NCBI GenBank assembly: GCA_028287565.1
Contig: JAQBPK010000213.1
Location: 1-33,576, forward strand
Direction of reading: 5' to 3'
Length of the DNA: 33,576 bases
DNA from: Vulcanimicrobiota bacterium
GTDB lineage: Bacteria; Vulcanimicrobiota; Vulcanimicrobiia; Vulcanimicrobiales; Vulcanimicrobiaceae
Position numbers and translations under genes: made by a program. Below the pieces are notes generated by a model. The model was not told the origin of the DNA. It made no database searches and saw nothing but the letters and a program-made list of their open reading frames with translations. Shown here one piece after another: positions 1 to 25,722 of the stretch (position 1 is the stretch's first letter; every line of letters begins with the position of its first letter).

Positions 1-290
1 TCGTCGCGGCGCAGCTCGAAGGCGCGATCAACTACGGCATCGCGATGGCGATGACGGCGAAGATCACGTTCACCGACGGCAAGGTCGACCAGAACAACTT
101 CTACGACTACACGGTGCTGCGCATGAAAGACGCGCCGAAGATTGAGAGCTACGTGGTGAAAAGCACCGAGAAGCCGACGGGCATCGGCGAGCTCGGCACC
201 CCGCCGATCGCCCCCGCGATCGGCAACGCGATCTTCAAAGCAACGGGCAAACGCGTGCGCCAGCTCCCGTTCAGCGACAACCTGGCGTAG
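1..290 (+). CDS. Molybdenum hydroxylase large subunit, IorB type (C-terminal fragment)
   Basis: Only the last 95 or so residues are in the window; the frame is open from base 3 and ends at TAG 288-290. The visible part matches the C-terminus of isoquinoline 1-oxidoreductase beta subunit (IorB)-type members of the xanthine dehydrogenase family, which carry the molybdopterin-cytosine-dinucleotide cofactor and hydroxylate N-heterocycles or oxidise aldehydes. The diagnostic stretch is the [19 protein letters not shown] segment, whose conserved Glu is the active-site base in this family, followed by the usual [11 protein letters not shown] ending. It differs in detail from the second large subunit at 2976-5246, so these are two separate enzymes. 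Substrate is not readable. Its partner small subunit would lie to the left, outside the window. Confidence 0.88.
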
Positions 291-293
291 CGG

Positions 294-881: not shown

Positions 882-1014
882 TTCCACGGCCGATACTTCT
901 TCGAAACATGCTGGCAATCTGCTTGCGCTATAAGAAACGGAGTTTAGGCCGAATGGTCGTACTACGAACCGGGACACCCCCTTTGCCGAGGCGAAGATCA
1001 CGCAGAAGGCGACG

Positions 1015-1767: not shown

Positions 1768-1802
1768 GAGCCACGAAGCGCGTTCGAATGCCGATGGATT
1801 AA

Positions 1803-2930
1803 ATGGCAAAATCTCCAAAGCTGTGGCCGCTCGATCCGCATACGGCTGCCAAACACGAGATACTACGCCGATATCTTGACCGCTGGATTCCGATCATGGC
1901 ACGCTGGAACCCGCGAATCGCGTTTGTCGATTGCTTCGCCGGTCCTGGTGAATACGCGGGCCGTGAATTTGGATCACCAATCTTAGTTCTGGATATTGCA
2001 CGAAAATTTGTCGACCGAGGGCTTCTCAGTCCGACCGCATTTACTCTTGCGGCAATTGAATTCAAGAAGCGCTCCTTTGAAAATCTCATTGATCGTTATA
2101 ACTCATATTTGCAAATTCACCCGCAGATGAGTGGGATCGACAATTATTTTCGACACGGTACGTACGAAGAAATGATCGGACACGTGCAGCGCCATCTAAA
2201 TGAACTCGGTGGCGGCAAAGTCGCATCCTTCTATTTCATCGACCCGTTCGGGGTAAGCCAAACCCCGTATTCTCTGCTTTCAAATTTATTGGCGCCTGAT
2301 AAGGCAGAAGTTCTCTTTAACCTCATGTACGAAGAGGTCAATCGATTCATGGAGGCGCCTGAATTTGAAGCACCGTTGGATACCATGTTTGGAGAATCGC
2401 ATTGGCGCGCGCTTCGGGAACTATCCGGAGCGGAACGGAAATCACAAACCGTCCAATACTTCAAGTCTCGCTTAATTAACGCTGGTGCAAAGCATATAGT
2501 CGTATTTGAGATGCGAAACGACCATAACGCTACTGATTACTTCCTATTCTTCGCGACGAAGAGCATGCGCGGCCTAGAAGTGATGAAGGAGGCCATGTGG
2601 CAAGTCGACCCATCGGGCGCTTTTACGTTTAGTGATTATACACACTCGCTTGGACCCATGCTCATCACGCCGCAGCCCAACTACGCGCATCTGCAAGACC
2701 AACTCCTTCATCGTTTCCGCGGCCACCGATCAGTACCAATGAAAGAAATTCGCGACTTCGTTCTGGCTGAGACGTCATTCCTGCGATTCCGAAATGAAGC
2801 GCTCAAGCCCATGATTGCTCGCGGTGACTGTTATGTCGAACGCACATCTCAGCACCCGTCAGCTCGACTTGACGCTGATGCTGAGATTACATTTCTATCA
2901 AAGCCGGGAACTTCGATCACCCTGTTCTAG
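1803..2930 (+). CDS. tcmP: Three-Cys-motif partner protein TcmP
   Basis: A 375-aa protein of the TcmP family, found beside DUF5131 proteins. The N-terminus has the family's KHEILRRYLDRW segment. Residues 41-51 (FVDCFAGPGEY) resemble motif I of SAM-dependent methyltransferases, an acidic residue follows at AAIEF (83-87), and FIDPFG (145-150) sits where motif IV would be. A Rossmann methyltransferase-like fold is therefore inferred, but no activity can be assigned. Residues about 310-345 could form a winged helix (VPMKEIRDFVLAETSFLRF and following). It lies 35 bp after the DUF5131 gene in the same low-GC block, and a high-GC operon begins 45 bp beyond its stop. The start at 1803 has only a weak ribosome-binding site (GGA about 7 bases upstream). 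Confidence 0.87.
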   Translation: MAKSPKLWPLDPHTAAKHEILRRYLDRWIPIMARWNPRIAFVDCFAGPGEYAGREFGSPILVLDIARKFVDRGLLSPTAFTLAAIEFKKRSFENLIDRYNSYLQIHPQMSGIDNYFRHGTYEEMIGHVQRHLNELGGGKVASFYFIDPFGVSQTPYSLLSNLLAPDKAEVLFNLMYEEVNRFMEAPEFEAPLDTMFGESHWRALRELSGAERKSQTVQYFKSRLINAGAKHIVVFEMRNDHNATDYFLFFATKSMRGLEVMKEAMWQVDPSGAFTFSDYTHSLGPMLITPQPNYAHLQDQLLHRFRGHRSVPMKEIRDFVLAETSFLRFRNEALKPMIARGDCYVERTSQHPSARLDADAEITFLSKPGTSITLF

Positions 2931-2975
2931 TCGGTATCTCAAAAGGCGCCCCGATTGAACGATTCGCGTGGGTGG

Positions 2976-5246: not shown

Positions 5247-6229
5247 GCCGCACCTCCGCACACCGTGCGAAGCGCGCGCACGATCGCGCGCTTCGCGAGC
5301 TCGACCTTGTACCCGTTGTGCGCGCGCGTTCGCGCGCCGGACAGCGCGACGTCCGCCGCATGCCGGAACGCGCTGTCGTCCGGCGGGGCGCCCGCGAGCG
5401 CGGCTTCCGCGTCGACCGCGCGCCACGGCACCGTCGCGACACCGCCCAGCGCGATCCGCGCCTGCGCGATCCGGCCGCCGTCGAGCTCCACCGCGCACGC
5501 GACGGACGCCAGCGCGAACTCGTACGACGCGCGGTCGCGCACCTTCAGATAGTGGGAGCGCGCGTGCAGCGGCTCCACGCGCAGCTCGATCGCGGTGATC
5601 AGCTCGCCGGGCGCGAGCGACGTCTCGTGCTGCGGCTCGTCACCGGGCAGCAGATACAGGTCCTCGAGCGCGATCGTCCGTTCGCCGGCGTCGCCCTCGA
5701 TCACGACATGCGCCGACAACGCGGCGAGCGCGACCGGCAAGTCGCCGGGAAACGTCGCGATGCACGCGTCGCTCGTGCCTAGGATGGCGTGACCGCGGTT
5801 GAAGCCGTCGAGCGCGTCGCAGCCGCTGCCCGGCTCGCGCTTGTTGCAGCGCCAGCGCGTTTCGCGAAAGTACGTGCAGCGCGTGCGCTGCAGCAGGTTG
5901 CCGCCGATCGTCGCGCTGTTGCGGATCTGTCCCGACGCACCGCTCAGCAGCGCTTCAGACACGGCCGGGAACGCTTGCGCGACCGTCGCGTCGTACGCGA
6001 CGTCGCTGTTGCGCGCCAGCGCCCCGATCCGCACGACGTCGCCGCGCCGCTCGATCGCGGTGAGCGGCAAGCGCGAGATGTCGACGACGCGCTGCGGGCG
6101 TTCGACGTCGGCCTTCATCAAGTCGACCAGCGTCGTGCCGCCGGCGTAGAACCGCGCGGCGCCGACCTCGCGCGCGAGCGCGCGCGCCGCAGCGGACGAA
6201 TCGGCGACGACGTACTCGAACGCGCGCAT
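5243..6229 (-). CDS. paoB: Aldehyde oxidoreductase FAD-binding subunit with [4Fe-4S] motif (PaoB/YagS type)
   Basis: A 328-aa FAD-binding subunit. FAD-contacting motifs are FYAGGTTLVDLMK (residues 27-39) and the NSATIGGNL loop (104-112). Cysteines at 118, 128, 137 and 156 lie in an insertion with RCTYFR, CNKREPGSGC and GTSDACIATFPGD, which closely matches E. coli YagS/PaoB, where this insertion binds an extra [4Fe-4S] cluster. That assigns the operon to the PaoABC type rather than plain xanthine or CO dehydrogenase. Start ATG 6229 overlaps the stop of the small-subunit gene by one base (TGATG), and its own stop overlaps the Mo-subunit start by four bases (ATGA), so the three genes are translationally coupled. 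Confidence 0.9.
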   Translation of the reverse strand: MRAFEYVVADSSAAARALAREVGAARFYAGGTTLVDLMKADVERPQRVVDISRLPLTAIERRGDVVRIGALARNSDVAYDATVAQAFPAVSEALLSGASGQIRNSATIGGNLLQRTRCTYFRETRWRCNKREPGSGCDALDGFNRGHAILGTSDACIATFPGDLPVALAALSAHVVIEGDAGERTIALEDLYLLPGDEPQHETSLAPGELITAIELRVEPLHARSHYLKVRDRASYEFALASVACAVELDGGRIAQARIALGGVATVPWRAVDAEAALAGAPPDDSAFRHAADVALSGARTRAHNGYKVELAKRAIVRALRTVCGGAA

Positions 6230-6729
6230 CAGCCGGCTCCTTGCACCGCGGCGATCGCCGCGACGATGTTCGGGTACGCGCCGCAGCGGCACAGGTTGCC
6301 GCTCATCGCCTCGCTGATCTCGGCGTCGCTGTGCGCGCGGCCCTCCGCGATCACGGCGACCGCCGACAGAATCTGCCCGGAAGTGCAGAAGCCGCACTGG
6401 AACGCGTCGTGCTCGACGAATGCGGCCTGCACGGCGTGCAGCTCGCCACCGTTCGCGAGCCCCTCGATCGTCGTGATCTCATCACCCGCGTGCACCAGCG
6501 CCAGCGCGAGGCACGAGAGCGTCCGGCGTCCGTTCACGAGCACCGTGCACGCGCCGCACTGGCCGCGGTCGCAGCCCTTCTTCGTCCCGGTCAGGCCGGC
6601 TCGCTCGCGCAGCAGGTCGAGCAGCGTGACGTTCGGCTCGACGACGAACGTCGCGTCACGGCCGTTGAGCCGCAGCGTCAGGGGAGCGGAGGAGCGCGGC
6701 GGCACGGCCGGCCGTTCGGTGGTTCGCAC
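6229..6729 (-). CDS. paoA: Aldehyde oxidoreductase [2Fe-2S] subunit (PaoA/YagT type)
   Basis: A 166-aa two-cluster ferredoxin-like subunit. Plant-type [2Fe-2S] cysteines are Cys53, 58, 61 and 73 (KGCDRGQCGACTV then SC); the second, C-terminal cluster uses Cys112, 115, 147 and 149 (QCGFC and LCRCG). The frame stays open far upstream, so the start was chosen at GTG 6729 because GAGGTG lies six bases before it; an in-frame GTG four codons earlier lacks a spaced ribosome-binding site. No twin-arginine signal peptide is seen from this start, unlike E. coli PaoA, so a cytoplasmic enzyme is inferred. It is the first gene of the operon; rplU begins 100 bp away on the opposite strand. Confidence 0.88.
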   Translation of the reverse strand: MRTTERPAVPPRSSAPLTLRLNGRDATFVVEPNVTLLDLLRERAGLTGTKKGCDRGQCGACTVLVNGRRTLSCLALALVHAGDEITTIEGLANGGELHAVQAAFVEHDAFQCGFCTSGQILSAVAVIAEGRAHSDAEISEAMSGNLCRCGAYPNIVAAIAAVQGAG

Positions 6730-6790
6730 GATCTTCACCTCGGGGACGCGGAGCAAGGGGCCTACGGTCTGTGAGACACGACCTCCCGCG

Positions 6791-6818
6791 TTGACGATCC
6801 ACCCGGGCGCGTGATAAG
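6791..6818 (+). promoter_or_regulatory. Possible rplU promoter
   Basis: TTGACG at 6791-6796 and GATAAG at 6813-6818 are separated by 16 bases. Transcription would start only a few bases before the rplU ATG at 6830, giving a very short or leaderless 5' end, so the assignment is tentative. Confidence 0.3.
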
Positions 6819-6829
6819 GTTCCCAGGTT

Positions 6830-7144
6830 ATGTACGCGATCGTTGAGACCGGCGGCAAGCAGTTCCGCGTGTCCGAAGGCGACGTCATCCGCACCGATCT
6901 CATCGAGACCGAAGTCGGCTCGTCCGTCACCTTCGACCGAATCGTCCTGGCCGCCGAGGGAGACGACGTCTCGATCGGCACCCCGCTCGTGAGCGGCGCG
7001 ACGGTGTCCGGCACGGTGCTTCGCCAGGCCCAAGACAAGAAGATCCTCGTGTTCCGGTACAAGTCCAAGAAGCGCGTCCGCAAGCTGAACGGCCACCGCC
7101 AGCGGTTCGCGGAAGTCCGGATCGACAAGATCTCGCTCGCCTGA
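6830..7144 (+). CDS. rplU: 50S ribosomal protein L21
   Basis: A 104-aa protein of the usual bL21 length. It begins MYAIVETGGKQFRVSEGD and carries the conserved KILVFRYKSKKRVRKLNGHR segment followed by VRIDKI near the C-terminus. bL21 binds 23S rRNA in the large subunit. The ATG at 6830 has AAGG about ten bases upstream. Next comes the Prp protease gene after 8 bp, as in the classical rplU-prp-rpmA block, but rpmA (L27) does not follow here. The paoABC operon starts divergently 100 bp away. Confidence 0.98.
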   Translation: MYAIVETGGKQFRVSEGDVIRTDLIETEVGSSVTFDRIVLAAEGDDVSIGTPLVSGATVSGTVLRQAQDKKILVFRYKSKKRVRKLNGHRQRFAEVRIDKISLA

Positions 7145-7152
7145 GCACTCCA

Positions 7153-7485
7153 GTGCTCGAGGTTCGCTTCCGCAGAGACAGCCGCGACCGGCTGTCTTCT
7201 GTTTTTTCCAGCGGCCACGCCGAGCAGGGAGAGCCGGGCGAGGACGTTGCCTGCGCGGCCGTCTCGGCGCTCCTCCAGGCCGCGTGGGCGGGCCTGACCG
7301 ACGTCGCGCACGTACAGGTGACGGGCCACCGGCGCAGCGGCGACCTGCTGATGCGCTGGCCGCAGGACGCGCGCGACCGCCAGGACGTCCACGCGATCGT
7401 CGCTACGGCCGAGCTCGCGATCGAGCAGATCGCCAAGCAGTACCGCGGCGCGATCCGCTACGTTCGCGAACCCGAGCGCGAATGA
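7153..7485 (+). CDS. prp: Ribosomal-processing cysteine protease Prp
   Basis: A 110-aa protein from GTG 7153. It has the Prp (YsxB) signature: GHA with His22, then GEDVACAAVSALLQ with Cys34, the catalytic His/Cys pair in the same positions as in characterised Prp enzymes. Prp removes a short N-terminal extension from ribosomal protein L27 in bacteria whose L27 carries one. It lies 8 bp after rplU, the conserved position. Unusually, rpmA, the substrate gene, is not downstream; a small membrane-protein gene follows. The intact active site suggests that L27 with a cleavable extension is encoded elsewhere. No strong ribosome-binding site precedes the GTG, so translation may depend on rplU. Confidence 0.9.
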   Translation: MLEVRFRRDSRDRLSSVFSSGHAEQGEPGEDVACAAVSALLQAAWAGLTDVAHVQVTGHRRSGDLLMRWPQDARDRQDVHAIVATAELAIEQIAKQYRGAIRYVREPERE

Positions 7486-7548
7486 TTTTGCGCGCGGGTA
7501 ACCGGGCGGGGAGATTCGGGGTACACCGGCGTCGAAAGGAAATGCACG

Positions 7549-7791
7549 ATGCATAGCGACCCGACCACACCCCTGAACGGCGAGATCCAGAGCGATGCCG
7601 GCAAGACGAACGGCGCGGACACCGACGCGGGCCGCACCGTCCTCGTGGGCGTCCTCGGTGGGATCATCTCGGCGGCCGGCTACCTGGTGTACCAGCGCCT
7701 CCCGGACGAGCAGAAGGAACGACTCCACCGCCAGGTCCGCGGCGTCCTGGAACAGCGGATCAACGAGCTCCGCAGCAACTTCAACCTGTAG
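7549..7791 (+). CDS. Small membrane protein of unknown function
   Basis: An 80-aa protein I do not recognise. The ATG at 7549 is preferred to one at 7542 because AAAGGA (7535-7540) is eight bases upstream of it. A hydrophilic N-terminus of about 28 residues precedes one transmembrane segment at about 28-48 (TVLVGVLGGIISAAGYLVYQ), followed by a charged amphipathic tail that could be a short coiled coil. It occupies the place where rpmA would normally follow prp. A strong hairpin at 7815-7853 probably ends its transcript. Confidence 0.7.
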   Translation: MHSDPTTPLNGEIQSDAGKTNGADTDAGRTVLVGVLGGIISAAGYLVYQRLPDEQKERLHRQVRGVLEQRINELRSNFNL

Positions 7792-7814
7792 CCGCCGTTC
7801 GTAGCTGAGATCGC

Positions 7815-7853
7815 GAAAGGGCGGGCACCGCACAGCGTGTGCCCAGCCCTTTC
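7815..7853 (+). terminator. Strong hairpin spanning the transglycosylase start codon
   Basis: Left arm 7815-7828 (GAAAGGGCGGGCAC) pairs with right arm 7839-7853 (GTGCCCAGCCCTTTC), with a single bulged A and a 10-base loop. Only a weak T-rich run follows (CTTGTCT). It may terminate the upstream small gene. Its right arm also contains the proposed GTG start (7839) of the next gene, so it could instead or also control translation. Confidence 0.55.
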
Positions 7854-8324
7854 CTTGTCTCGCTGATCGTCGCGTACGCGTCGGCGCTGCGGGCGTTCGA
7901 TCCCGGGCTAGACGACGCGCGGGCGACACGGCTTGCGGCGCGGGTCGTCGCCGAAGCCGATGCCGCGCGGATCGACGCGCGGCTGGTGGTCGCGCTCGTC
8001 GCCGTGGAGTCGTCGTGGGAGCCCAAGGCGGTTTCGTCCGCCGGTGCGCGCGGGCTCGGACAGCTCATGCCCGCGACCGCCGCCGGCCTCGGAGTCGATC
8101 CCGACGATCCCGAGGCGAACCTGCACGGCACGGTCGTGCACCTCGCGGGCCTGCTGGCGCGGTACGGCCGCCTACCCGCGCAGGACCGCTACGAGCGCGC
8201 GATCGCAGCGTACAACGCGGGCGCCGGTGCGGTCGACCGCTACGGCGGGGTGCCGCCGTACGCCGAGACGCGGCTAGAGGTGCGCCGAGTGATCGCCCTG
8301 TGGCGCCGGCTCTGCGGTGTCTGA
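7839..8324 (+). CDS. Lytic transglycosylase (SLT domain)
   Basis: A 161-aa protein with the SLT/goose-lysozyme-like fold signature: catalytic Glu in AVESSWEPKAVSSAGARG, GLGQLMPATA, YERAIAAYNAGAGAV, and YGGVPPYAETR. Enzymes of this family cleave the MurNAc-GlcNAc bond of peptidoglycan with formation of 1,6-anhydroMurNAc. The N-terminus is hydrophobic for only a short stretch (residues 4-17), so export by a signal peptide is uncertain. The only plausible start is GTG 7839, inside the right arm of a strong hairpin and with a poor ribosome-binding site. The 3' end overlaps the convergent TatA/B-like gene by 51 bp. Confidence 0.85.
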   Translation: MPSPFLVSLIVAYASALRAFDPGLDDARATRLAARVVAEADAARIDARLVVALVAVESSWEPKAVSSAGARGLGQLMPATAAGLGVDPDDPEANLHGTVVHLAGLLARYGRLPAQDRYERAIAAYNAGAGAVDRYGGVPPYAETRLEVRRVIALWRRLCGV

Positions 8325-8849
8325 CGCGATCGCGGCCGGAGGCGCCGCCTCGCCGTCGGCCGCGATCCCCGGCTCGATGAGATTGAGCGCCGGGCGCGGC
8401 TCCGCGAGCCGCTCCGAGACGCTGTCGGACGGCTCCGCCACGTTGTTCGGCCGCGCCGCGACATTGTTGGGCCGCTCCGGGTCCGGCGCCGGCGGTTCGT
8501 AGGCCCGCGTCACCGGCATCGCGACCGTGGGCGCGTCGTCGTACGCCGCCGTCGCGTCGTACGGCGCCCCGTAATCCGGCTTCGCTTCGTAGGGCGGGTC
8601 GTCGTACGGCTTGCCGTCGTACGCCGCAGCGTCGTACGGGACCGGGTCGTACGCCGGCGCCTCGTACGGCTTCGCGGCCTCGTCCTGCAGGTCGGCGGCG
8701 CGCTCCATCTCGCGGATGAAGGACTGGGACGTGTTCTGAATCTCCCGCATGAAGCCGCCGGCCTTGCGCGCGACGCGCGGCAGCTGTTCGGGTCCGAAGA
8801 GCAGGAGAGCGGCCGCTCCGAGAAGCGCCATATCGGGGATCGAAAGCAT
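8274..8849 (-). CDS. TatA/TatB-like translocase protein with Tyr-Asp repeat tail
   Basis: A 191-aa protein. Residues 1-40 match the TatA/TatB family: a short N-terminal membrane helix (MALLGAAALLLFGPEQLP) with the conserved FGPEQLP hinge, then an amphipathic helix (RVARKAGGFMREIQ). These proteins form part of the Sec-independent twin-arginine translocase. The rest is unusual: residues about 61-107 are a Tyr-rich repeat with Tyr at 62, 67, 72, 77, 82 and 87, an exact five-residue period of the form (P/A)-Y-(D/E)-x-x, then irregular copies, a doubled RPNNVA motif (126-138), and a Pro/Ala-rich end. No tatC is nearby. The length with one membrane helix suits TatB, but TatA versus TatB cannot be decided. 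Confidence 0.8.
   Translation of the reverse strand: MLSIPDMALLGAAALLLFGPEQLPRVARKAGGFMREIQNTSQSFIREMERAADLQDEAAKPYEAPAYDPVPYDAAAYDGKPYDDPPYEAKPDYGAPYDATAAYDDAPTVAMPVTRAYEPPAPDPERPNNVAARPNNVAEPSDSVSERLAEPRPALNLIEPGIAADGEAAPPAAIASDTAEPAPQGDHSAHL
8539..8668 (-). repeat. Short repeats (TCGTACG) encoding the Tyr-Asp tail
   Basis: Seven copies of TCGTACG, a palindrome-centred heptamer, lie between 8539 and 8668, mostly spaced in multiples of three and often 15 bases apart. They encode the (P/A)-Y-(D/E)-x-x pentapeptides of the TatA/B-like protein on the minus strand. Confidence 0.8.
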
Positions 8850-16366: not shown

Positions 16367-17719
16367 GTGGGTGCGATCGAGGCGATCGAGCACCGCGACG
16401 CGGGCGCTGCGCTGCGCCGTCTGGGCACGCCGAACGCATTGGCGCTGGTCAGCGACCAGCTGCTGGGGATCGTCGACACGATCGCCATCGGTGCGCTCGG
16501 CACCGCGGCCCTGGCCGGCATCACCGGCGCGACGGGCGTGTTCATGGTGCTGTGCATCGGGCTCTTCGCGTTCGCCAGCGGCATTCGCATCCTCGGCGCG
16601 CAGGCGATCGGCGCGGGGCAGAGCGAGCGCTACGGCGCGATCGTGCGCGCGGCGACCGTCGTCCCGCTCGCGATCGCGACGCTGGCCGCGCTGGTGTCGG
16701 TGTTCGCGGCAAAGCCGCTGCTGCACGCGATCCTGCCGGCCGGCGCGCCACTGGACGCATCGGCGCACTATCTCATGCTGCGCAGCGCGTGTTTGATCCC
16801 GATGGTGTGCAGCGGAATGCTCGCCGTGGCGTTCGCGACCGCCGGCGATTCCAAGCCGACGCTGCGGCTGCTGCTCGTGATCAATGCCGTGCACGTGCCG
16901 CTCGTGTTCGTGCTCGCGCTCGGCGCGCTCACGCACCATCCGTTCGGCCTCACCGGCGCCGGTATCTCATCGCTCTTCGCCGAGTTCGTGGGCCTCGTAT
17001 ACATGGTGTGGCTGACGGCAAAGCGCCCGCAGCTAGGCGTCTTCTCCTCACCGCGCATCAACCGCGCGCTGGTGCTCGCGACGGCGTCGATCAGCTGGCC
17101 GGAGTTCGTGTTCCTTATTTTGCAGATGATCGACGGGCCGATCACCGTTGCGTTGCTCGCGCCGTACGGCACCGAGCTGGTTGCGGCGTACCGCGCGCTC
17201 TCGCTCGTCAGCGACATCACCTGGTCGGTTCCCGGCGCGCTCGGCGACGCGTCCGAAGTCGTGCTCGGCCAGCGCATCGGCGCGCGCGACTACATCGGCG
17301 CAAAGGCGTTCCAGCGCGACGCGACGCGCCTCGGCGTGCTGCTCTGCCTCGGAGTCGGCGCGCTCGTCGCAGTGCTGGCGTGGCCGCTCGCGGCGATCTG
17401 CACCCTCAGCCCGGCGCTCGCGACGCTCGCCGCCGCGCCGCTCGCGGTGCACGTGCTCGTCACGCTGCCGCTCAAGGGCTACGCGATGACCGTGCTCGCG
17501 CCGATCCGCGGCGCGGGCGACACGCGCTTCGTGATGGTGATGGGGATCGTGACGACGATCGTCGCGATCGGCGGCATCGCGGCGGGGATTCGATTGATGC
17601 ACTTCGGCCTATGGGCGGTACCGTTCGGCTGGACCGCGGGCTGGCTGGTGCGCGGCACGATCACGACGGTGCGGCTGCGGGGCGGCGACTGGGAGCGCCG
17701 CCGCCTCGCGACGTCGTGA
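16367..17719 (+). CDS. MATE family efflux transporter
   Basis: A 450-aa integral membrane protein from GTG 16367 with about 12 hydrophobic segments in two similar halves, as in the MATE (NorM/DinF) family of cation-coupled drug exporters. Characteristic pieces are LVSDQLLGIVDTIAIGALGTAALAG in the first helix region (split here only by reading), GIRILGAQAIGAGQSERYG after helix 2, and in the second half ALGDASEVVLGQRIGARDY followed by a Gly-rich helix. GAGDTRFVM near the C-terminus is the usual loop. Substrate cannot be told. It ends the kinase-membrane protein-MATE run; an 88-bp regulatory gap follows. Confidence 0.9.
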   Translation: MGAIEAIEHRDAGAALRRLGTPNALALVSDQLLGIVDTIAIGALGTAALAGITGATGVFMVLCIGLFAFASGIRILGAQAIGAGQSERYGAIVRAATVVPLAIATLAALVSVFAAKPLLHAILPAGAPLDASAHYLMLRSACLIPMVCSGMLAVAFATAGDSKPTLRLLLVINAVHVPLVFVLALGALTHHPFGLTGAGISSLFAEFVGLVYMVWLTAKRPQLGVFSSPRINRALVLATASISWPEFVFLILQMIDGPITVALLAPYGTELVAAYRALSLVSDITWSVPGALGDASEVVLGQRIGARDYIGAKAFQRDATRLGVLLCLGVGALVAVLAWPLAAICTLSPALATLAAAPLAVHVLVTLPLKGYAMTVLAPIRGAGDTRFVMVMGIVTTIVAIGGIAAGIRLMHFGLWAVPFGWTAGWLVRGTITTVRLRGGDWERRRLATS

Positions 17720-17807: not shown

Positions 17808-18119
17808 ATGATCGACGACTCCAGCAGCCCGCGCTACCCAAACCCAGCTCGTGCATCGTTGCGACATAGCGCCACCGTCACGGATCTCGCCAGCCGCCGT
17901 GCGGACGACGTGCTCGACACGATCACGCTGGTCTTCGGCGGCGTCAACTACGGCACGATTTACGTTGCGGCGCCGTACGTCAAGGACAAACCGATCGTCC
18001 TGTATCTCGTCCCGTCGGGAAGCGGCGCCGCGTCCGGTGAGGGCGAGCTGCGCGGGCGGCTCGATTGTCTGATCACGGACGATCCCGCGCTGGCGCTCGA
18101 ACAGCAGGCGGCCCGCTGA
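17808..18119 (+). CDS. Unknown 103-aa protein coupled to the radical SAM gene
   Basis: A 103-aa protein from ATG 17808 with a strong ribosome-binding site (GGGGAGG at 17795-17801). I recognise no family. The N-terminal 30 residues are polar (Ser, Arg, Pro rich). The middle is beta-rich and hydrophobic (TITLVFGGVNYGTIYVAAPY, then KPIVLYLVP). The C-terminus is acidic, with the only Cys in LDCLITDD. Its stop overlaps the start of the radical SAM gene (TGATG), so the two are translationally coupled. It could be the substrate, a binding partner or an unrelated protein. No double-Gly leader or repeated core of a typical RiPP precursor is evident. Confidence 0.75.
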   Translation: MIDDSSSPRYPNPARASLRHSATVTDLASRRADDVLDTITLVFGGVNYGTIYVAAPYVKDKPIVLYLVPSGSGAASGEGELRGRLDCLITDDPALALEQQAAR

Positions 18120-19138
18120 TGCTCGCTCGCCCGCACACGCTCGCCCTCGTCACGACGCGCCGCTGCACCGCGGCCTGCGATCACTGCTGCTTCGGCTGCA
18201 GTCCGACCGCGCAAGACGCCATTCCGATCGAACGGCTCCACGGGCTCATCGACGAGGCCAAGCGCGTCCCGTCGATTCACCGGATCGGATTCACGGGCGG
18301 AGAGTGCTTTCTGCTCGGCCGCGATCTCGTCGCGCTGGTCGCTCACGCGCACGAGCTGAATTTCGAGACCCGCGCGATCACCAACGGGTACTGGGCCCAC
18401 AGCGAGCGCGCGGCGCGCCTGCGCATCGAGCCGCTGTACCTCGCCGGTCTCGACGAGCTGATGCTGTCGACCGGGACGTTCCACCAGCGGTTCGTGCCGG
18501 TCGAGCGCGTAGCGCTGGGTGCGCGCGCCGCCGCATCGTTCGGGATCCGCACGCGCATCTCCATCGAAGCATGCGACCAGTCGGAGTTCGATGCCGCCGG
18601 ACTGCGCGCGTCGCTTGCCGATTTGGCCGGCGACGGCTCGGTGTGCATCGCCGAGGAGCCATGGATCCCCGACGCGGGCGGCCGCGGGGCGTCGGCGCTC
18701 AGCCATGACGGCATTCTGACGCGCGAGCTCGCGGAGCGCGCGCGCGGCGCGTGCGCGCAAGTGCTCAACGTCGTCACGGTCACACCGCGCATGCAGCTCA
18801 CGGCGTGCTGCGGCTTTCCGAACGAAGAGCTTCCCGAATTGGGAATCGGGTCGGTCGCCGAACGGCCGCTCGACGCCGTGCTCTCCGAAAGCCCCAACAT
18901 GCTGCTGCAGATGTGGCTCCACGTCGCGGGCCCGGCGGGGATCGCCGATTTCGTCGCGAGCAAAGATCGCGAGTTCGTGTTCCCGGCGTTCGCTTCCATC
19001 TGTCATGCCTGCGTCGCGATCCAGCGCGACGAGCGCGCTATGCGCTTCGTCGTGCAGCATGCGGGTGAGATCGTCGGGGACATCGCCGCGCGATTCGCCG
19101 CCGCGCAGCCGCAGCTCGCAACCGCGTCTCCCTGCTAA
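18119..19138 (+). CDS. Radical SAM protein with SPASM-like C-terminal cysteines
   Basis: A 339-aa protein. The radical SAM cluster motif is Cys16-x3-Cys20-x2-Cys23 (RRCTAACDHCC), followed by FTGGECFLLG, the SAM-binding GGE motif, and ITNGYW. The C-terminal half has further cysteines in a SPASM-like order: GACAQVLNVV, LTACCGF, then SICHACVA. These would bind auxiliary [4Fe-4S] clusters, as in peptide- or protein-modifying maturases. Starting at ATG 18119, it overlaps the stop of the 103-aa gene. There is no N-terminal RRE-like peptide-binding domain before the cluster motif, so substrate recognition would need another protein. The reaction is unknown. Confidence 0.88.
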   Translation: MLARPHTLALVTTRRCTAACDHCCFGCSPTAQDAIPIERLHGLIDEAKRVPSIHRIGFTGGECFLLGRDLVALVAHAHELNFETRAITNGYWAHSERAARLRIEPLYLAGLDELMLSTGTFHQRFVPVERVALGARAAASFGIRTRISIEACDQSEFDAAGLRASLADLAGDGSVCIAEEPWIPDAGGRGASALSHDGILTRELAERARGACAQVLNVVTVTPRMQLTACCGFPNEELPELGIGSVAERPLDAVLSESPNMLLQMWLHVAGPAGIADFVASKDREFVFPAFASICHACVAIQRDERAMRFVVQHAGEIVGDIAARFAAAQPQLATASPC

Positions 19139-19181
19139 CCGCCTCCACTCCGCCCTCAGCCGCTTCACCGAGGAGCATCTC

Positions 19182-19775
19182 ATGTCGAGCACGTTCACCG
19201 CACTTGCCGTTACGCAAATATCACTGACCGGCTTTTCGGCCGATCAATCGGGCGGAACCCCGGCGATCCAAAACTACAACGGGCTCCCACTGTACTGCCA
19301 CGTCACGGAGGCCGGGCCGCGTCTCTACTCGATGCTGATCAACACGTCGGGACCGAGCTCGTTCGCGCCCGGAACCGGCGACCTGCAGCTCGTGACGTTC
19401 GTCTACGATCCCCAGGGCGCCGGCACCCCGCCGATGACGTTCCCGGTGAGCGGAGCGTTCTACAACGGCCAGCCCAGCGATCTCTCGCTGCAGTTCACGG
19501 GCCCGGCGACGGCGACGCTCGTGGTCGCGCAAGCACCCGGACCGCAGCCGCCGCTGCCGAAACCCGCCGCTGCGCCGGGCGACATCGCCACGATCACGAC
19601 GGTGAAGATCAGCGCCACGCATGCCGGTACCGCGCAGGACCTCATGTTCTTCGTCAACATCCCGCTCCCGAACAACCACACGGTGACGGCCGGTGACACC
19701 TGGACGGCATCGGTGAAGTGGACAGGCGGCCTCGGAGGCGCAATCGGCCCCGTCGGCAACTTCGAGTCGCCGTAG
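19182..19775 (+). CDS. Unknown beta-rich 197-aa protein
   Basis: A 197-aa protein from ATG 19182, with GAGGAG about 8 bases upstream; it follows the radical SAM gene by 43 bp and is probably in the same transcript. I do not recognise it. Sequence is rich in Thr, Ser, Gly and Pro with alternating hydrophobic strands, suggesting two beta-sandwich-like halves (about 5-110 and 130-197) joined by a Pro-rich linker (APGPQPPLPKPAAAPG). There is one Cys (LPLYCHV) and no signal peptide or membrane segment. It ends 3 bp before the end of the convergent regulator gene. Confidence 0.75.
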   Translation: MSSTFTALAVTQISLTGFSADQSGGTPAIQNYNGLPLYCHVTEAGPRLYSMLINTSGPSSFAPGTGDLQLVTFVYDPQGAGTPPMTFPVSGAFYNGQPSDLSLQFTGPATATLVVAQAPGPQPPLPKPAAAPGDIATITTVKISATHAGTAQDLMFFVNIPLPNNHTVTAGDTWTASVKWTGGLGGAIGPVGNFESP

Positions 19776-19778
19776 CGC

Positions 19779-22598
19779 TCAATCCGCGGCACGGACGAGC
19801 TCGGCGAGGCGCCTGGACGGCGTCGCGCCGAGCTCGTTCGCCAGCGCCGTCGCGTACCGCCGAAACTCGCGCCGCGCCGCGTCCGAATCCCCGCGCACGC
19901 GGTGGACGCGCAGGACGAGCTCGCACGCCGCCTCGTCGTACGGGTCGATCGCCTCGACACGCCGCGCGTACGCGAGCGCGTCGTCGAGCCGTTCGGCCCG
20001 CAGCGCGTCGGCCGCCAGCAGCATCCCGGCCCTGCACAGCAGTTCGTTGATCCGGGCGAGCGTGCTCTGCATCCAGACGTAGCGATCGTACCGGCTCGAA
20101 GCGCTCGCGTCGTACGAGTCCAATGCGGCGCGGAGCGCGTCGCGCTTGGCGTCGTCCAGCATGCCGCCCTCGCACTCACGCACCAGCGCTTCGGCGCGGC
20201 GCAGGTCCACGTCGATCGACGGCGACAGCCGGTACGATCCGTTGCCGGCGATGACCGCGTCGCGCTCGGCGAGCTTCCCGCGCAGCCGTGAAAGCGTTAC
20301 CTTGAGGTTGTTGGGCCACTCCTCGGGATCGAGATGGTCCCACAGCGCCTCGCCGATCCGGTCGCGCGAGAGCGGTCCGTGCGCGGTCGCGAGCAGCGCG
20401 AGCAGCTCGAACTCCTTGTCGCTGAGCTGAACACGAGCCCCGTCGCGCGTCACGCGCGCCGAAAGGATGTCGATCGTGAGCTTCTGCTTCGCCGCCGCGC
20501 GCGCGCGCACGACACGTTGCTGCAAGAACGGTTCGAGCACGCCGGCGGCGCCGCCGGTCAGCAGCCCGCCGATCGCAGCGTGCAGCTCGGCGGACTCGAT
20601 CGGCTCGACGATCGCGCGCAGCACCTGCGCTTCGGCCGCTCGGGCACTTGCATCCAGCGTGTACAACGCGGCGTGGGCCAGTATTTGCACGTAGGGATCG
20701 CGCCGCTGGTCGGCCGCGCGCACCGCTGCGCGCGCGGCGTCGACGGCGACGTCCCGGTCGCCGGAGACGCCCATGCGATAGAGATGGGCGATCGCCGCGA
20801 CGACAGGCGAGGAATAGCCCTCCTCGAGCTGCGGCGAACGCCCGCGCGCCGCATCGATCATCGGCGCGAAGCCGCGCTCGATCCCGGGTAGCAGCGCATC
20901 CTCCATCGCGATCAGGTACCGCTCGAAATCGGCGTCGGCGCCATTGGCCCACGTGAAGAACGCCGCGTTTCCCGCCGTCATCGCGACGTGGAGCGGAAGC
21001 TCGTCGCGCTCGCTGCGCCGCAGCAGCTCGTCGAAGATGACCACGATGCGCTCGACCTTTCCGCGGTAGGTCGCTTCGTGCGCTTCGATGTAGTGCAGCG
21101 TCTGGTTCTCCGCAAAACCGGTCGGCGACAGCGCCGCGGCCTCCGAAGCGAGCGCGCGCGCCAGGCGAAACCGTCCCTCGATCCCGCGCAGCGACGCGAC
21201 GAAGTTAAGCATCGAGGCGCGGGCGGGCGACGCATCGCGCGCGAAGCCGCTCAGCGCGTCGTCGATGACCTGCTCGCACTCCGCGATCCGTCCCGCGTTC
21301 GCATACGCGTTGGCGAGCAGGATGGACATCGCCGCGCGCTGGTCCGCACTGGCGGACGACGGCAGACAGTAGTAGACCGTCTCCGCCTCACGCACGAACG
21401 TCGCGCGGTCGACGGAAAAGTTGCGGTAGGGGATCGTCGCGATCCACAAGTTCGGAAAGCGCGTGATCAGCGAACGGTCGAGCCGGTCGATGACGCGCTC
21501 GTACTCCTGCAGCGTGACGGGGACGGCGAAATACGTCGGCGCGGCGTCGATCATCGCCGCGGCGCGCATGACGTCGCGCTGGCCCAGCGCCACCTGCGCG
21601 GCCTGCACGTACTCCCCCTCGCCCGCGAGCACGCTCAGCACGCGCTCGTAGAGCGCTTTCACCAGCGGCCCGAAGCGCTCGCGCAGCAGCCGGACGATCT
21701 CCGCGTGCACGTAGAGCTTTGCATTCTCCGTCTCGACGAACGGCAGCGCCGAGAGCTGTGCGAAGACGAAGTCGTCGCAGCCGTCGCCCAGCACGCGCAC
21801 CAGGTCCGCCTGCGACGATCCCGGCCGCAGCGACGCGACGAGCAGCCCGTCGCGCACCACGTCCTTGAGGCGCGCGATCGTTCGATGCATCACGAGCGCG
21901 AGCAGCATGTCGCGCGGCACCGAGGCCGCCTCGGCGAGCAGTTCGGGGTCGCGGTCGCGCTGCTCGAGCAGGAGCAGCAGCCTGGTCACGAGCGGCCAGC
22001 CATGCGCGACGTCGTGAACGGCGCGGGCGCTGGCGACCGAGACTGCGCTTTGCTCCGCGATCGCCAAGACGTCGTCCACGCCGAGCGAGAGATCGGGCGG
22101 CCCGATCACCGCGGACGTCTCGCGGCTGACGATTTGCTGGAGGGCCGACGGGAGCGGTGCGCGCGTGACGAGGGCCAGCGTCCGTTTGGGCGGGAGCGTC
22201 CCGACGAGCTCGCCGACCAAGTCGGCGCCGGCGGGGCTCGGCAGCGCGCCGAAGGGATCGCGCAGGGCGAAGAGCTCCGGGTCCGCAGCGACCGGCCATT
22301 CCCGCCTGAGCGCCTCGCGCGAGTTCGCCGCGATCTGCTCTCGGCGAAGCGCGAGGCGGTCGACCGCCGACCGGACCGCGAGCGCACGATCGCGTTCCAG
22401 CATCGCCTCGAGAACGACGCGCGCGAGATTGGGCGGTTCGTCGTCGACCGGCAGATCGCAGAGGGTGAGCAGCCCCGCGTGACCCGCGTAGCTGCGCAAG
22501 AACGCGGTCTTGTCGTACCCGGGCGGACCCCAGATCGTGAGGACACGAGGAGCGCCTTCCGCGATGAAGTCGGCGAGATTCGGAACCGGGCCGAGCAC
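19779..22598 (-). CDS. Large STAND/SARP-like transcriptional regulator (NTPase, TPR, winged helix, BTAD)
   Basis: About 939 aa if started at GTG 22598, chosen because GAGGAT is placed just upstream and the repeat operator lies beyond it; the frame is open further to 22802. N-terminal part: a MalT/STAND-like NTPase with a Walker-A-like GPPGYDKT (24-31), where Asp replaces the usual last Gly. The middle is helical, TPR-like. A C-terminal OmpR/PhoB-type winged helix (LSDKEFELLALLATAHGPLS, then NNLKVTLSRLRGKL) is followed by a bacterial transcriptional activation domain (ARRVEAIDPYDEAACELVLR). In SARPs the DNA-binding part is N-terminal; here the order is reversed. It probably senses a ligand or partner and activates nearby genes; targets are inferred from the GTAACC repeats. 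Confidence 0.85.
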   Translation of the reverse strand: MLGPVPNLADFIAEGAPRVLTIWGPPGYDKTAFLRSYAGHAGLLTLCDLPVDDEPPNLARVVLEAMLERDRALAVRSAVDRLALRREQIAANSREALRREWPVAADPELFALRDPFGALPSPAGADLVGELVGTLPPKRTLALVTRAPLPSALQQIVSRETSAVIGPPDLSLGVDDVLAIAEQSAVSVASARAVHDVAHGWPLVTRLLLLLEQRDRDPELLAEAASVPRDMLLALVMHRTIARLKDVVRDGLLVASLRPGSSQADLVRVLGDGCDDFVFAQLSALPFVETENAKLYVHAEIVRLLRERFGPLVKALYERVLSVLAGEGEYVQAAQVALGQRDVMRAAAMIDAAPTYFAVPVTLQEYERVIDRLDRSLITRFPNLWIATIPYRNFSVDRATFVREAETVYYCLPSSASADQRAAMSILLANAYANAGRIAECEQVIDDALSGFARDASPARASMLNFVASLRGIEGRFRLARALASEAAALSPTGFAENQTLHYIEAHEATYRGKVERIVVIFDELLRRSERDELPLHVAMTAGNAAFFTWANGADADFERYLIAMEDALLPGIERGFAPMIDAARGRSPQLEEGYSSPVVAAIAHLYRMGVSGDRDVAVDAARAAVRAADQRRDPYVQILAHAALYTLDASARAAEAQVLRAIVEPIESAELHAAIGGLLTGGAAGVLEPFLQQRVVRARAAAKQKLTIDILSARVTRDGARVQLSDKEFELLALLATAHGPLSRDRIGEALWDHLDPEEWPNNLKVTLSRLRGKLAERDAVIAGNGSYRLSPSIDVDLRRAEALVRECEGGMLDDAKRDALRAALDSYDASASSRYDRYVWMQSTLARINELLCRAGMLLAADALRAERLDDALAYARRVEAIDPYDEAACELVLRVHRVRGDSDAARREFRRYATALANELGATPSRRLAELVRAAD

Positions 22599-22616
22599 GT
22601 GATCCTCGTCTGGGCG

Positions 22617-22633
22617 GTAACCGCGCAGTAACC
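22617..22633 (+). promoter_or_regulatory. Candidate SARP-type operator in the divergent promoter
   Basis: GTAACC at 22617-22622 and 22628-22633, again with an 11-bp period and the same orientation as the pair at 17751-17767. A -10-like GACGAT (22643-22648) follows 9 bases later on the plus strand. The site is 19 bases upstream of the regulator's proposed start, so it could serve the 210-aa gene and autoregulation. Confidence 0.55.
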
Positions 22634-22714
22634 TCGTCCCCTGACGATCGTTCTGAAACGGTGCCGCTTTCGATAGGCGTTCGGCACCTTGTACTCCTGT
22701 CTGGAGGCGCGTGA

Positions 22715-23347
22715 ATGGCAAGGTGCTACGAAGTCGTCCTGGAGATCGCCGGCGACGACGTGCGGGACCTCCGGGCACGCGCGTGCGCCCCAGCGATCGC
22801 AAAACCAGCCGGCACCGTGCCCCCCACCGTCGTCTGGTTCTCGGCGCCGCTCGCTACGCGAACGGTGTTCACGTGGGACGAGAGCGCGTACGGGCTCTAC
22901 GCGGCGGTGACGGCGCCCAAACCGTCGGCGGCGCTCGAGCCGGACGGCGAGATCTATCCCGCGCTGCCGCGCGTGCACTACACGTTCGAGGACAGCGGCT
23001 TCCGCGTGCGCGCCGGCACCGGCGCGCACGCGGAAATTCCGAACGGCCGGTACGAGCTCGCCAACGGCGCGCCGGTTGCGATCACCGCCGGGCTGGTGCA
23101 GCGCGCGAAGGTGAACGGTACCGACGTCCTCTCACCACTGAACGCGGTCGTGCTGCCGCCGGGCTTCACCGCCGAGTTCGCACCCGCAACGAAGCTCTAC
23201 GTGTGGCTGCAGCGTCCCGCCGCTCCCGGCACGGTGATCGCGCCGGCGCCGGACCACGCGGTCGAGGTCGATCTGGGTGGGCCCTCGCGGACGATCGCGT
23301 ACCGCTACGATCCGGACGGCGCGCGCTTCGTGCCGTGCAAGCCCTGA
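22715..23347 (+). CDS. Unknown 210-aa beta-rich protein
   Basis: A 210-aa protein from ATG 22715, with GGAGG (22702-22706) at a good distance. I do not recognise it. It has an N-terminal alpha/beta stretch (CYEVVLEIAGDDVRDLRARA), then many short strands with Pro and Gly (VVWFSAPLATRTVFTWDES, YTFEDSGFRVRAGTG). There is no signal peptide or membrane segment. It is divergent from the regulator gene with a candidate SARP-type operator between them, and convergent with the peptidase-like gene, leaving only 7 bp. Its overall composition resembles the 197-aa protein at 19182, but I cannot show homology. Confidence 0.75.
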   Translation: MARCYEVVLEIAGDDVRDLRARACAPAIAKPAGTVPPTVVWFSAPLATRTVFTWDESAYGLYAAVTAPKPSAALEPDGEIYPALPRVHYTFEDSGFRVRAGTGAHAEIPNGRYELANGAPVAITAGLVQRAKVNGTDVLSPLNAVVLPPGFTAEFAPATKLYVWLQRPAAPGTVIAPAPDHAVEVDLGGPSRTIAYRYDPDGARFVPCKP

Positions 23348-23354
23348 CCGCGGT

Positions 23355-24542
23355 TCACGAGGTCAGCCGGCGCGGTCGCGTGAGCCGCGCGTACACCGTT
23401 CCGCCCTGATCGAGGAAGAGCACGCGCCCGCCCACCGTGAGCTGGTAGAACGGATGGAACGGCGAGAACGACTCCGCGCACGCACGCCAGGCGAGGACCG
23501 GCGAGAACGAGACTCCGCGAGGAACCAGACGGGTCGTGTTCTCGAGCTGCGTGTCGATCACGTTCCGGTAGAGCCGTTCGCTGAACAGGTCGCGGTCCGC
23601 CACCGTTCCGGCATCGCGTTCGTCGAACGACACCTCGAGCAGCCCGCCGTCCCACGCGTCGATGCGCGCGGTACCGAGCAGCGTCTTCTCCGAACCGCGC
23701 CGGATCGTGACGAGGTAGTAGTACGAGTCCGTCCGGTCGAGCCGCTGCACCAAATGCGCCGTGTCCGGCGTCAGCCCAGCCTCGGACGGCGCCAAGTCGA
23801 ACTCGACCGCCGCCGAGACGGCGGCGTCCTGTGCTTCGCTCGCGGTGATGAGGCGTCGCTCGTCCATGCGCAGGTTCCTCACGGTCCAGCGCGCCGGCAG
23901 CAGATCCGTGATGATCGGACCGACGGGAGCGAGCCGATCGCTGAAGACGCCGGCGCATCTGCCGGCCGCCGGCAAAGCGGTGATAGGAATGACGGATTCC
24001 AGCCAGCCTCGCCACGGTTTCATGGCGGGGGTGAGCTGCGTCGTGCAGGCGTCGCCGCGCTGGTGCGGCGGGATTCCCGGCAGCTTCGGAGACTGAGGAA
24101 GGCCCGACGGCACGTTGACCCAGATCGTCTTCACGCGGAACGGCTGGGTCGGCTCGACGTCGGTCTCGACCGCGACGGGGACGCTCCAGTGCTCGTGGGT
24201 GGTCATGCAGACGACGGGCGGAATCGCATCGGCATGCGAAAGCGCCGCTACGACCAGACTGGCCATTCCGGCGGCGTCCGTGGTGTAACAGGGCTGGAAC
24301 GTCGCGTCGAGCGACGCCGTCTTGAACGTGCCGAAGCCCAGCGCGAGCCCCGGTGGGGAGACGAGCCAGCCGTCCGAGTAATCGTGCATGAACGGATACG
24401 AGCTCTCTTGCTGGACGAGGGGCGCGCCCGGCTCCGCCGCACCGAGCGACATCATCAGCGACGCGGCACCGCAATACGCGTCGGGGTCGTCCTGGTAGTG
24501 CATCTCGACCGGACCCACGGTGCTCTTCCAACCACCAGCCAT
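23355..24542 (-). CDS. C39/papain-like cysteine peptidase domain protein
   Basis: A 395-aa protein from ATG 24542. Near the N-terminus, HYQDDPDAYCGAASLMMSL (residues 15-33) has a Gln17 and Cys24 followed by GAAS, as in C39-like peptidases (oxyanion Gln, catalytic Cys). A candidate catalytic His is His116 or His118 (MTTHEHWSVPVAVE), with acidic residues following at ETDVEP. The remainder (about 200-395) is not recognised; it includes VQRLDRTDSYYYLVTI and WDGGLLEVSFDERDAG. No ABC-transporter part and no signal peptide are seen, so it is not a standard bacteriocin exporter. Activity is inferred from the motif only. Adjacent genes encode the radical SAM cluster and its regulator. Confidence 0.68.
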   Translation of the reverse strand: MAGGWKSTVGPVEMHYQDDPDAYCGAASLMMSLGAAEPGAPLVQQESSYPFMHDYSDGWLVSPPGLALGFGTFKTASLDATFQPCYTTDAAGMASLVVAALSHADAIPPVVCMTTHEHWSVPVAVETDVEPTQPFRVKTIWVNVPSGLPQSPKLPGIPPHQRGDACTTQLTPAMKPWRGWLESVIPITALPAAGRCAGVFSDRLAPVGPIITDLLPARWTVRNLRMDERRLITASEAQDAAVSAAVEFDLAPSEAGLTPDTAHLVQRLDRTDSYYYLVTIRRGSEKTLLGTARIDAWDGGLLEVSFDERDAGTVADRDLFSERLYRNVIDTQLENTTRLVPRGVSFSPVLAWRACAESFSPFHPFYQLTVGGRVLFLDQGGTVYARLTRPRRLTS

Positions 24543-24648: not shown

Positions 24649-25722
24649 TCAGCGCGCCGCGAGATAGCGCTTGCGGAGCGCGTCCAAGACGACCGCGAGC
24701 AGGATGACGGCGCCGAGCACGATCTGCTGCGTGTAGGACTCGATGTCGAGCAGGTTCATCACGTTGTTGAGCACGCCGATCAGCAGCGCGCCGAAGAACG
24801 TGCCGACGATCGTGCCGCGTCCGCCCATCAGCGACGTGCCGCCGACGACGACGGCCGCGATGCACTGCAGCTCCGCGCCCGTGCCGTTCTGCGGATTGGC
24901 CGAGCCGAAGCGCGCCATCAGGAGCAGCCCGCCCAGCGCCGCGCAGCCGCCGGAGATCACATACACCAGCGTCTTGACGGCGCGCGTGTCGATGCCGGCC
25001 AGGCGCGCGGCCTCTTCGTTGCCGCCGAGCGCGAGCACGTAGCGCCCGTACGCCGTGCGGCCGAGGACGATTGCGAACACGATCACGACGACCGCCATCA
25101 CGACGACCACCCACGGAATCCCGGGAAACCCCGGAATGTCGGTCAGCACGTAGCCGGTGCCGAGCCACTCGAACGGTGAGCTGTCCGCGAGCGGGATCGG
25201 CTCACCGTGCGCGAGCTTGAACGCGAGCCCGCGCCCGATCAACATCATCGCCAGCGTCGTGATGAAGGGCGGCAAACCCAGCCGCACGACCGGCAACGCG
25301 TTGACGAAGCCCGCCGTGCAGCCGACCGCGAGCCCGACGAGCAGCGTGACGATGAACGTGCCGGGGCCGCCGAGGTGCAGCGTGTTCGCGACGAGCGCCA
25401 TCACGACGCCGCACAGGCCGACGATCGAGCCGACGGAGAGATCGATACCGGCCGTGATGATCACGAACGTCTGGCCGACGGCGAGGATCGTGTTCAACGT
25501 GATCTGCCGCAGGACGTTGGTGAGATTGCCCGGCGCGAGAAAATTCCCGTGCGCGAGAGAGTTCACGAGCAGCACGAGGACGATGAAGCCCACCGCTAAG
25601 CCGGCAGTTCGGATCGTCGCGGCACGGCGTTTTTGCGCGGCCGCCTCGTCGGCGCGCTGGTCCATGACGGCCTTGACCGCGGCGTCCGAAGCGCTCGCGC
25701 CCGGCAGGTTCGCATCAGCCAT
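24649..25722 (-). CDS. Sugar ABC transporter permease (RbsC family)
   Basis: A 357-aa permease from ATG 25722, which overlaps the ATPase stop (TAATG). It has about 8-10 transmembrane segments and the family signatures GQTFVIITAGIDLSVGSIVGL, VRLGLPPFITTLAMM, ALGGNEEAARLAGI and VVGGTSLMGGRGTIVGTFFGA. An Ala/Arg/Lys-rich cytoplasmic N-terminal extension of about 35 residues precedes the first helix. It forms the membrane channel of a monosaccharide importer (ribose/xylose/galactose type). It is the last gene of the operon binding protein - ATPase - permease; no sugar kinase follows, so the substrate is not indicated. Confidence 0.93.
   Translation of the reverse strand: MADANLPGASASDAAVKAVMDQRADEAAAQKRRAATIRTAGLAVGFIVLVLLVNSLAHGNFLAPGNLTNVLRQITLNTILAVGQTFVIITAGIDLSVGSIVGLCGVVMALVANTLHLGGPGTFIVTLLVGLAVGCTAGFVNALPVVRLGLPPFITTLAMMLIGRGLAFKLAHGEPIPLADSSPFEWLGTGYVLTDIPGFPGIPWVVVVMAVVVIVFAIVLGRTAYGRYVLALGGNEEAARLAGIDTRAVKTLVYVISGGCAALGGLLLMARFGSANPQNGTGAELQCIAAVVVGGTSLMGGRGTIVGTFFGALLIGVLNNVMNLLDIESYTQQIVLGAVILLAVVLDALRKRYLAAR

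Follow-up and report, generated by a model that had tools for sequence, protein, structure and literature searches.

Six adjacent genes at positions 17808-24542 of a 33,576-nucleotide stretch of DNA from a Vulcanimicrobiota bacterium (hereafter the window, which represents genome G000 in the comparisons below) form a unit that is gained and lost as a block within its genus. By its sequence, the enzyme at the centre of this unit is a radical SAM protein of the EpeE type, and the small protein encoded directly downstream of it carries a conserved C-terminal motif. We tentatively interpret the unit, granting this interpretation somewhat less than an even chance, as a maturation system of the epipeptide kind that is controlled by a regulator and acts on a substrate of protein size. 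The genes, lettered A to F in positional order, and the elements in question are the following.

A, 17808-18119, plus strand: 103 amino acids (aa), no Pfam or NCBIfam family; second-choice candidate substrate or helper of B
B, 18119-19138, plus strand: 339 aa, Radical_SAM (Pfam); EpeE/YydG type, putative peptide or protein epimerase
Cys230-Cys231 of B, 18806-18811, plus strand: Cys231 aligned with the Cys replaced by Ala in EpeE entries 8ai3-5
C, 19182-19775, plus strand: 197 aa, fast-evolving, directly 3' of B; best candidate substrate of B
C tail motif G-G-A-I-G-P-V-G (general form G[GS]xxGP[VIM]G), 19734-19757, plus strand: proposed cut and modification site
D, 19779-22598 or longer, minus strand: 939 to 975 aa, Trans_reg_C and BTAD at the C-terminus; open reading frame (ORF) open upstream to 22706 and beyond
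D/E intergenic stretch, 22599-22714, no strand: between the divergent genes D and E; likely shared control region
E, 22715-23347, plus strand: 210 aa, all-beta by a confident model, without match to solved structures
F, 23355-24542, minus strand: 395 aa, C39-like (papain-fold) cysteine peptidase that has a second region at its C-terminus; putative processing enzyme of C

Recurrence, gain and loss of the unit

All six genes lie where an earlier note on this DNA had described them. They are flanked by a MATE-type transporter gene on the left (16367-17719; MatE, 1e-29) and by a permease gene on the right (24649-25722; BPD_transp_2, 1e-47), and the successive gaps, flanking genes included, measure 88, -1, 43, 3, 116, 7 and 106 bases. 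Across the 11 genomes of the genus and the 99 genomes of the family that were compared, all six genes recur in identical order and at the identical site in two further genomes (locus L032 of G008 and locus L034 of G007), and this recurrence makes the cluster more than a chance arrangement. Among the three copies, A, B, C, E and F share pairwise identities of 27-62%, and D of 53-57%. The L034 copy of D (5731-8594; G007:C81) is split across two frames, through either a real frameshift or an assembly error.

The earlier note had put forward co-occurrence in related genomes as a check on the cluster, and a shared distribution is what the genus displays. B is present in 6 of its 11 genomes. Within the genus, these six are also the only ones with C, F and a close copy of D (41-57% identity); five of them have E and four have A, both of which are absent from the five that lack B. 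An additional match to A in G003 (E-value 0.067) is at chance level. The five genomes lacking B hold only D paralogues of 26-28% identity, which occur in the B genomes as well; three of these five are 73-83% complete, and some absences could be gaps. Beyond the six, F has a match in G021 and weak ones in G012 and G053, E occurs in G059 and G039, and C in no other genome of the family. The search model for C held rows from the six positive genomes, and the weight of this last result lies on the absences; the first C alignment (A2), with which the genomes were searched, also contained an L037 protein that later proved unrelated and was dropped in A6, which renders the L037 match of that search circular.

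Both flanking genes could be located in 8 of the 11 genus genomes. The site between them holds the full unit in G000, G007 and G008, B, C and F along with a gene of phage-collar type in G005, and A only in G001, and it is cluster-free in G004, G006 and G010 (gaps of 812, 559 and 737 bases), where the best tblastn match to any of the six genes has an E-value of 0.31. In G005, D and E lie together some 116 kb from the site, beside a Spore_III_AA/R3H-type gene (a type also scanned in L033), and in G001 it is B, C, D and F that adjoin a gene of this type. G003 carries B, C and the end of D on one contig, with E, F and the start of D on another, which suggests a single cluster broken by assembly. 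The flanking genes of the cluster-free G004 are as close to those of the window (81 and 86% identity) as are the flanking genes of G008 (81 and 85%), an observation that points to a unit that comes and goes as a block. Together with the co-occurrence in the same genus genomes, the three cluster-free copies of the site indicate that the genes form a unit. To this extent the interpretation in the earlier note is supported, while the enzyme class has changed to the EpeE type and C is now preferred over the 103-aa protein as substrate. As a separate observation on G001, a chagasin-family inhibitor gene (I42) adjoins a papain-family (C1) peptidase gene in this genome (L103:11633-12863).

The radical SAM enzyme

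B matches the Pfam Radical_SAM family, and a 10-row alignment of B (A1), used as a profile against PDB, has as its best matches the EpeE/YydG entries 8ai1, 8ai6 and 8ai3 (E-values of 7e-33 to 5e-31), aligned over positions 7-308 of 339, with the next structure class far behind at 7e-7. Of the radical SAM/SPASM-like assignment in the earlier note, the first half is thus confirmed; no SPASM model in Pfam matches B at an E-value of 1 or less, and the C-terminal cysteines follow the EpeE pattern. A SPASM-type thioether maturase was rejected for want of a SPASM match, and with the enzyme class being of the EpeE type, epimerisation becomes the expected chemistry. Entries 8ai3-5 differ from 8ai1 in having Ala in place of the second Cys of a CC pair, and B has CC at this position (Cys230-Cys231). 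By count, the altered Cys is chain residue 248, and it would be Cys223 if the chain bears a 25-residue tag; the reviews PMC8326336 and PMC5682303 give Cys223 as the hydrogen donor of EpeE and describe a second 4Fe-4S cluster near its C-terminus. The cysteines of B were compared over 20 rows (the window, seven loci of its family, G093, Saccharopolyspora, nine plasmid relatives and a Macrococcoides YydG; further matches of G093 and G142 and, out of 15 plasmid records, the five numbered H10-H13 and H15 are not among the rows). The CxxxCxxC radical SAM motif (C16, C20, C23) is kept in all 20, as are C230, C231, C295 and C298, and C212 is kept in 19; C212, C230, C295 and C298 are put forward as candidate ligands of a second cluster.

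In a tree of the family, the window copy of B groups with five other B of the genus (support 99/100) and then with that of L037 (97/96), with L038 and Saccharopolyspora joining next and less supported. The match of B to the NCBIfam model TIGR04078 (YydG; 1.6e-23, 83.6 bits, residues 9-131) makes it, by the NCBIfam cut-off, a relative rather than an orthologue of YydG. The role of B as an epimerase is well supported as a prediction, and we deem it quite improbable that B combines an EpeE fold with some other chemistry on C or A, such as the formation of a thioether or C-C link. Radical SAM families are admittedly hard to assign by sequence, and B shares little identity with EpeE and scores below the YydG cut-off, but the full EpeE-aligned set of cysteines is kept, donor position included, and GP[VIM]G contains no cysteine or aromatic residue. 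A viperin-like defence protein was also considered and rejected, the PADLOC pVip model covering only residues 12-98 of B (9e-11), which is the common radical SAM part.

Some relatives of B have neighbours of other kinds. Downstream of the second B of G007 (L037:10604-11851) lies the gene for a 415-aa protein with a Vps62 match (1.7e-9) and a weak Toxin_10 match. In G025 (L038:6364-7918), a caspase-type gene (Peptidase_C14, 4e-11) is divergent to the gene for the 126-aa proline-rich protein that precedes B. Near a B relative in G093, a partly masked ORF (L039:11096-12303) consists of SGPIALM repeats.

Candidate substrates and the peptidase

C lies directly 3' of B in all six genus genomes with B, at B-to-C gaps of 43, 9, 17, -4, 80 and -8 bases; in L036 its ATG overlaps the stop codon of B, and F begins 2 bases past C. 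The other copies are 15-31% identical to that of the window. All seven copies (the six plus a second C of G005) carry GP[VIM]G at 4-12 residues from the C-terminus, the variable residue being V, I, I, M, M, M and M, and positions -4/-3 are GG in four copies, GS in two and NG in one. GP[VIM]G occurs anywhere in 0.8-4% of shuffles per C protein, and its presence in copies that share descent is a matter of conservation, not of seven independent events. According to PMC8326336, EpeE epimerises Val36 and Ile44 of its peptide, which makes the V/I/M of GP[VIM]G a fitting candidate site. A sequence search of solved structures with C gave no useful match, profile comparisons of A with C and of C with E revealed no relation, and plasmid searches with one C copy and two F copies found nothing. 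The earlier note would have regarded its proposal as refuted if the 103-aa and 197-aa proteins belonged to families with unrelated housekeeping roles; neither matches any family, and this refutation did not come about. The window copies of A, C, E and F have no Pfam match at an E-value of 1 or less and no NCBIfam match, save for a meaningless one of A at 0.028.

The description of F as a C39-like cysteine peptidase is borne out by Gln17, Cys24 and His118, which are kept in all five aligned F, and is less clear-cut for the window copy, which has no Pfam match (E-value of 1 or less) and an uncertain third catalytic residue. Peptidase_C39_2 matches the L090 relative above cut-off (5.1e-5) and those of L032 (3.1e-4) and L087 (1.8e-3) below it, with no match for L036, and a sequence search of solved structures with F returned weak matches only (Alr0975 at 0.15). 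C and F overlap or abut in L087 and L036, with F directly after C, and their identities are similar (31/30/42% for C versus 30/27/42% for F); this adjacency (in L087, the second C-F pair of G005, without B nearby) and the parallel divergence make it likely that F acts on C. C39-type peptidases, among them the leader peptidases of bacteriocin transporters, cleave behind Gly-Gly, Gly-Ala or Gly-Ser, and GG or GS is found at -4/-3 of GP[VIM]G in six of the seven C; unlike the leader peptidases, F has no transporter fused to it. A 70-aa ORF some 1 kb from the L087 pair (L087:10370-10582) contains a Gly/Val-alternating stretch; it has a low coding score and may be spurious.

In the epipeptide-like system that we favour, D (plausibly a large ATPase/TPR-type protein, with winged helix and BTAD) would switch on the cluster, and B would take the alpha-hydrogen from a substrate residue and return one from Cys231 on the other face, leaving a D-residue, epimerisation being strongly suggested as its reaction class. 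The most likely target of B would be the end of C, where the V/I/M of GP[VIM]G is the prime candidate, and F would cut C at the neighbouring Gly-Gly or Gly-Ser; A may be a second substrate or a helper, and E an accessory all-beta protein. The fast divergence of C and F, set against flanking genes that are 78-85% identical, would suit a product under competitive selection. A narrower version, possible but on the doubtful side, is that of an epimerisation-and-cleavage tag, in which a D-amino acid (the V/I/M of GPxG) would be written into the tail of a full-size, ribosomally synthesised protein of some 170-220 residues and a C39-like peptidase would cut beside it, the enzyme, its substrate and the peptidase being acquired and lost jointly and switched on by one regulator.

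Several observations weigh against this interpretation. B's 84 bits are far below the curated TIGR04078 cut-off of 300 bits, the predicted model of C is poor (predicted local distance difference test, pLDDT, of 40) and lends no support to a free tail, and no transporter belongs to the unit. C is absent at L037 (the second B locus of G007) and at L038 (G025), where other small proteins sit just upstream of B, the one of L037 not being detectably related to C in a profile comparison (E-value 1.5). The C-F pair of L087, the second of G005 (4-base overlap), is away from B. C39 peptidases are expected to have Asp or Asn at the residue before the conserved Pro145, and this residue of F is V, S, C, D and N in the five rows (Val in the window), hence Asp/Asn in only two, with N, N, H, H and Q one position earlier. 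Lastly, the likely precursor in other phyla is encoded upstream of the enzyme, like A, and not downstream.

This last point leads to the chief rival reading, in which A would be the protein that B acts on, by epimerising residues of its beta-rich middle, and C, E and F would accompany the pair as effectors or accessories. A is beta-rich by sequence, and its coupling to the radical SAM gene, as noted earlier, is borne out by a one-base overlap in which the ATG of B shares a base with the TGA of A; A stands beside B in G000, G007 and G008, and the gaps in the three loci where it overlaps or abuts B are -1, 6 and 4. The relatives in other phyla have a gene for a protein of 122-301 aa directly before that of the enzyme, the position of A in the window; in all nine for which an annotated or called upstream gene was measured, it ends no more than 95 bases from the enzyme. 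Furthermore, A is kept alone at the MATE site of G001, with B 70 kb distant, and is absent from the five genus genomes without B. On the other hand, A is missing from G005 and, barring the chance-level match, from G003, both of which have B and C; in L033, L035 and L036, B is directly preceded neither by A nor by another small gene; and A lacks the hydrophobic or Asn-alternating stretches seen in the precursors of some relatives. C, which is beside B in all six genomes and not in only three, is hence the better candidate, and we consider A as the substrate to be rather unlikely.

A strict scan for uncharged stretches rich in V/A/N/I/T/G found none in the window. In nine other loci of the family it gave three matches (part of the L034 MATE-type transporter, an L033 ORF opposite a called gene, and the 70-aa ORF of L087), and in nine loci of other phyla two, in Collinsella and Klebsiella. 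A short precursor hidden in the window was rejected, as the gaps between its genes (116 bp at most) are too small. These gaps, and the close relation of B to a peptide epimerase, fit the protein-sized rather than short-peptide substrate that the earlier note had suggested.

It might also be argued that B modifies a protein or peptide encoded elsewhere and that the cluster gathers co-regulated but unrelated effectors. The partners of B do vary between loci and are not homologous, C and F lie away from B in G005, and E occurs without B in G059 and G039. Nonetheless, B, C, F and close copies of D share the same 6 of 11 genomes, and B and C are adjacent in all six and overlap in L036, so that we hold such a scenario to be decidedly unlikely.

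Regulation, accessory genes and related systems

The earlier note had seen in D a STAND-type regulator of roughly 940 aa with winged helix and BTAD. Pfam confirms Trans_reg_C and BTAD; no NTPase family is matched in the window D at an E-value of 1 or less, and the AAA_16, AAA_22 and nSTAND matches of the L037 relative are all below cut-offs, leaving the STAND assignment plausible. D is divergent to E in all five genus loci that hold both; opposite D lies F in L033, and in L037 the small protein encoded upstream. Given this head-to-head placement, D probably controls the unit. The model of E is confident (pLDDT 90.7) and all-beta; Foldseek searches gave no PDB or BFVD match at an E-value of 0.001 or less (best PDB 0.074, best BFVD 0.037), and a sequence search of solved structures gave no useful match. 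Relatives of E occur elsewhere without B. Tandem pairs of E relatives are found in G059 (L089:5458-7711) and on a Rhizobium plasmid (L044:4989-6680). The G059 pair adjoins a protein with a trypsin-like 'TAAHC' motif, noted by eye and without a Pfam match, and in Alicyclobacillus (L045:3360-5291) an E-like gene apparently lies in two parts flanking an IS200/IS605 TnpB gene.

A phage origin of the unit was discarded: in PHROGs, B has matches of a general radical SAM nature and no others, A, C, E and the window F have none, and the F of L032 has a weak endolysin match. Positions 1-4000 of the window have a G+C content of 58-61%, compared with 65-72% across the remainder.

Among the closest known counterparts is the epipeptide system epeXEPAB (yydFGHIJ) of Bacillus subtilis, which, like the unit, combines an EpeE/YydG-type enzyme with a peptidase gene. 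An epipeptide locus on a Macrococcoides plasmid comprises a 51-aa YydF precursor, an epimerase, a peptidase and two ABC transporter genes. By comparison, the window unit has neither a short YydF-type precursor nor an ABC transporter (the neighbouring permease is a gene of the site, present also without the cluster), and it has instead a C39-like soluble peptidase, candidate substrates of protein size and a BTAD regulator. Proteusins such as polytheonamide, whose epimerases are of the PoyD type, are made from large precursors modified near the C-terminus; no NCBIfam model for a proteusin NHLP/Nif11-type leader matched A or C at an E-value of 1 or less, the match of A at 0.028 being unrelated.

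Uncharacterised plasmid radical SAM loci (Thermus, Klebsiella, Collinsella and others) likewise combine a B-family enzyme with the upstream protein of 122-301 aa. On the plasmids of Thermus aquaticus, Collinsella and Klebsiella sp. (L041, L050 and L051), the EpeE-family enzyme lies just downstream of proteins of 241-301 aa with Asn/Ala-alternating stretches, which recall polytheonamide cores; the strict scan caught two of these three. A methyltransferase gene is near the enzyme in all three, accompanied by an SdpI-type gene in Thermus and Klebsiella and by a DUF1648 gene in Collinsella. In the Thermus and Klebsiella loci SdpI-type immunity and methyltransferase thus accompany the precursor, and neither is present in the window unit. 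A literature search, with preprints and most subscription papers outside its scope, yielded no description of the cluster.

The EpeE-type epimerases known to date go with short epipeptide precursors. Should the interpretation favoured here be true, the EpeE family would have proteins among its substrates as well, and a simple motif at the C-terminus would serve as the handle. This would point to wider uses of D-residues in bacteria, and it would make the unit a genetically compact and testable system.

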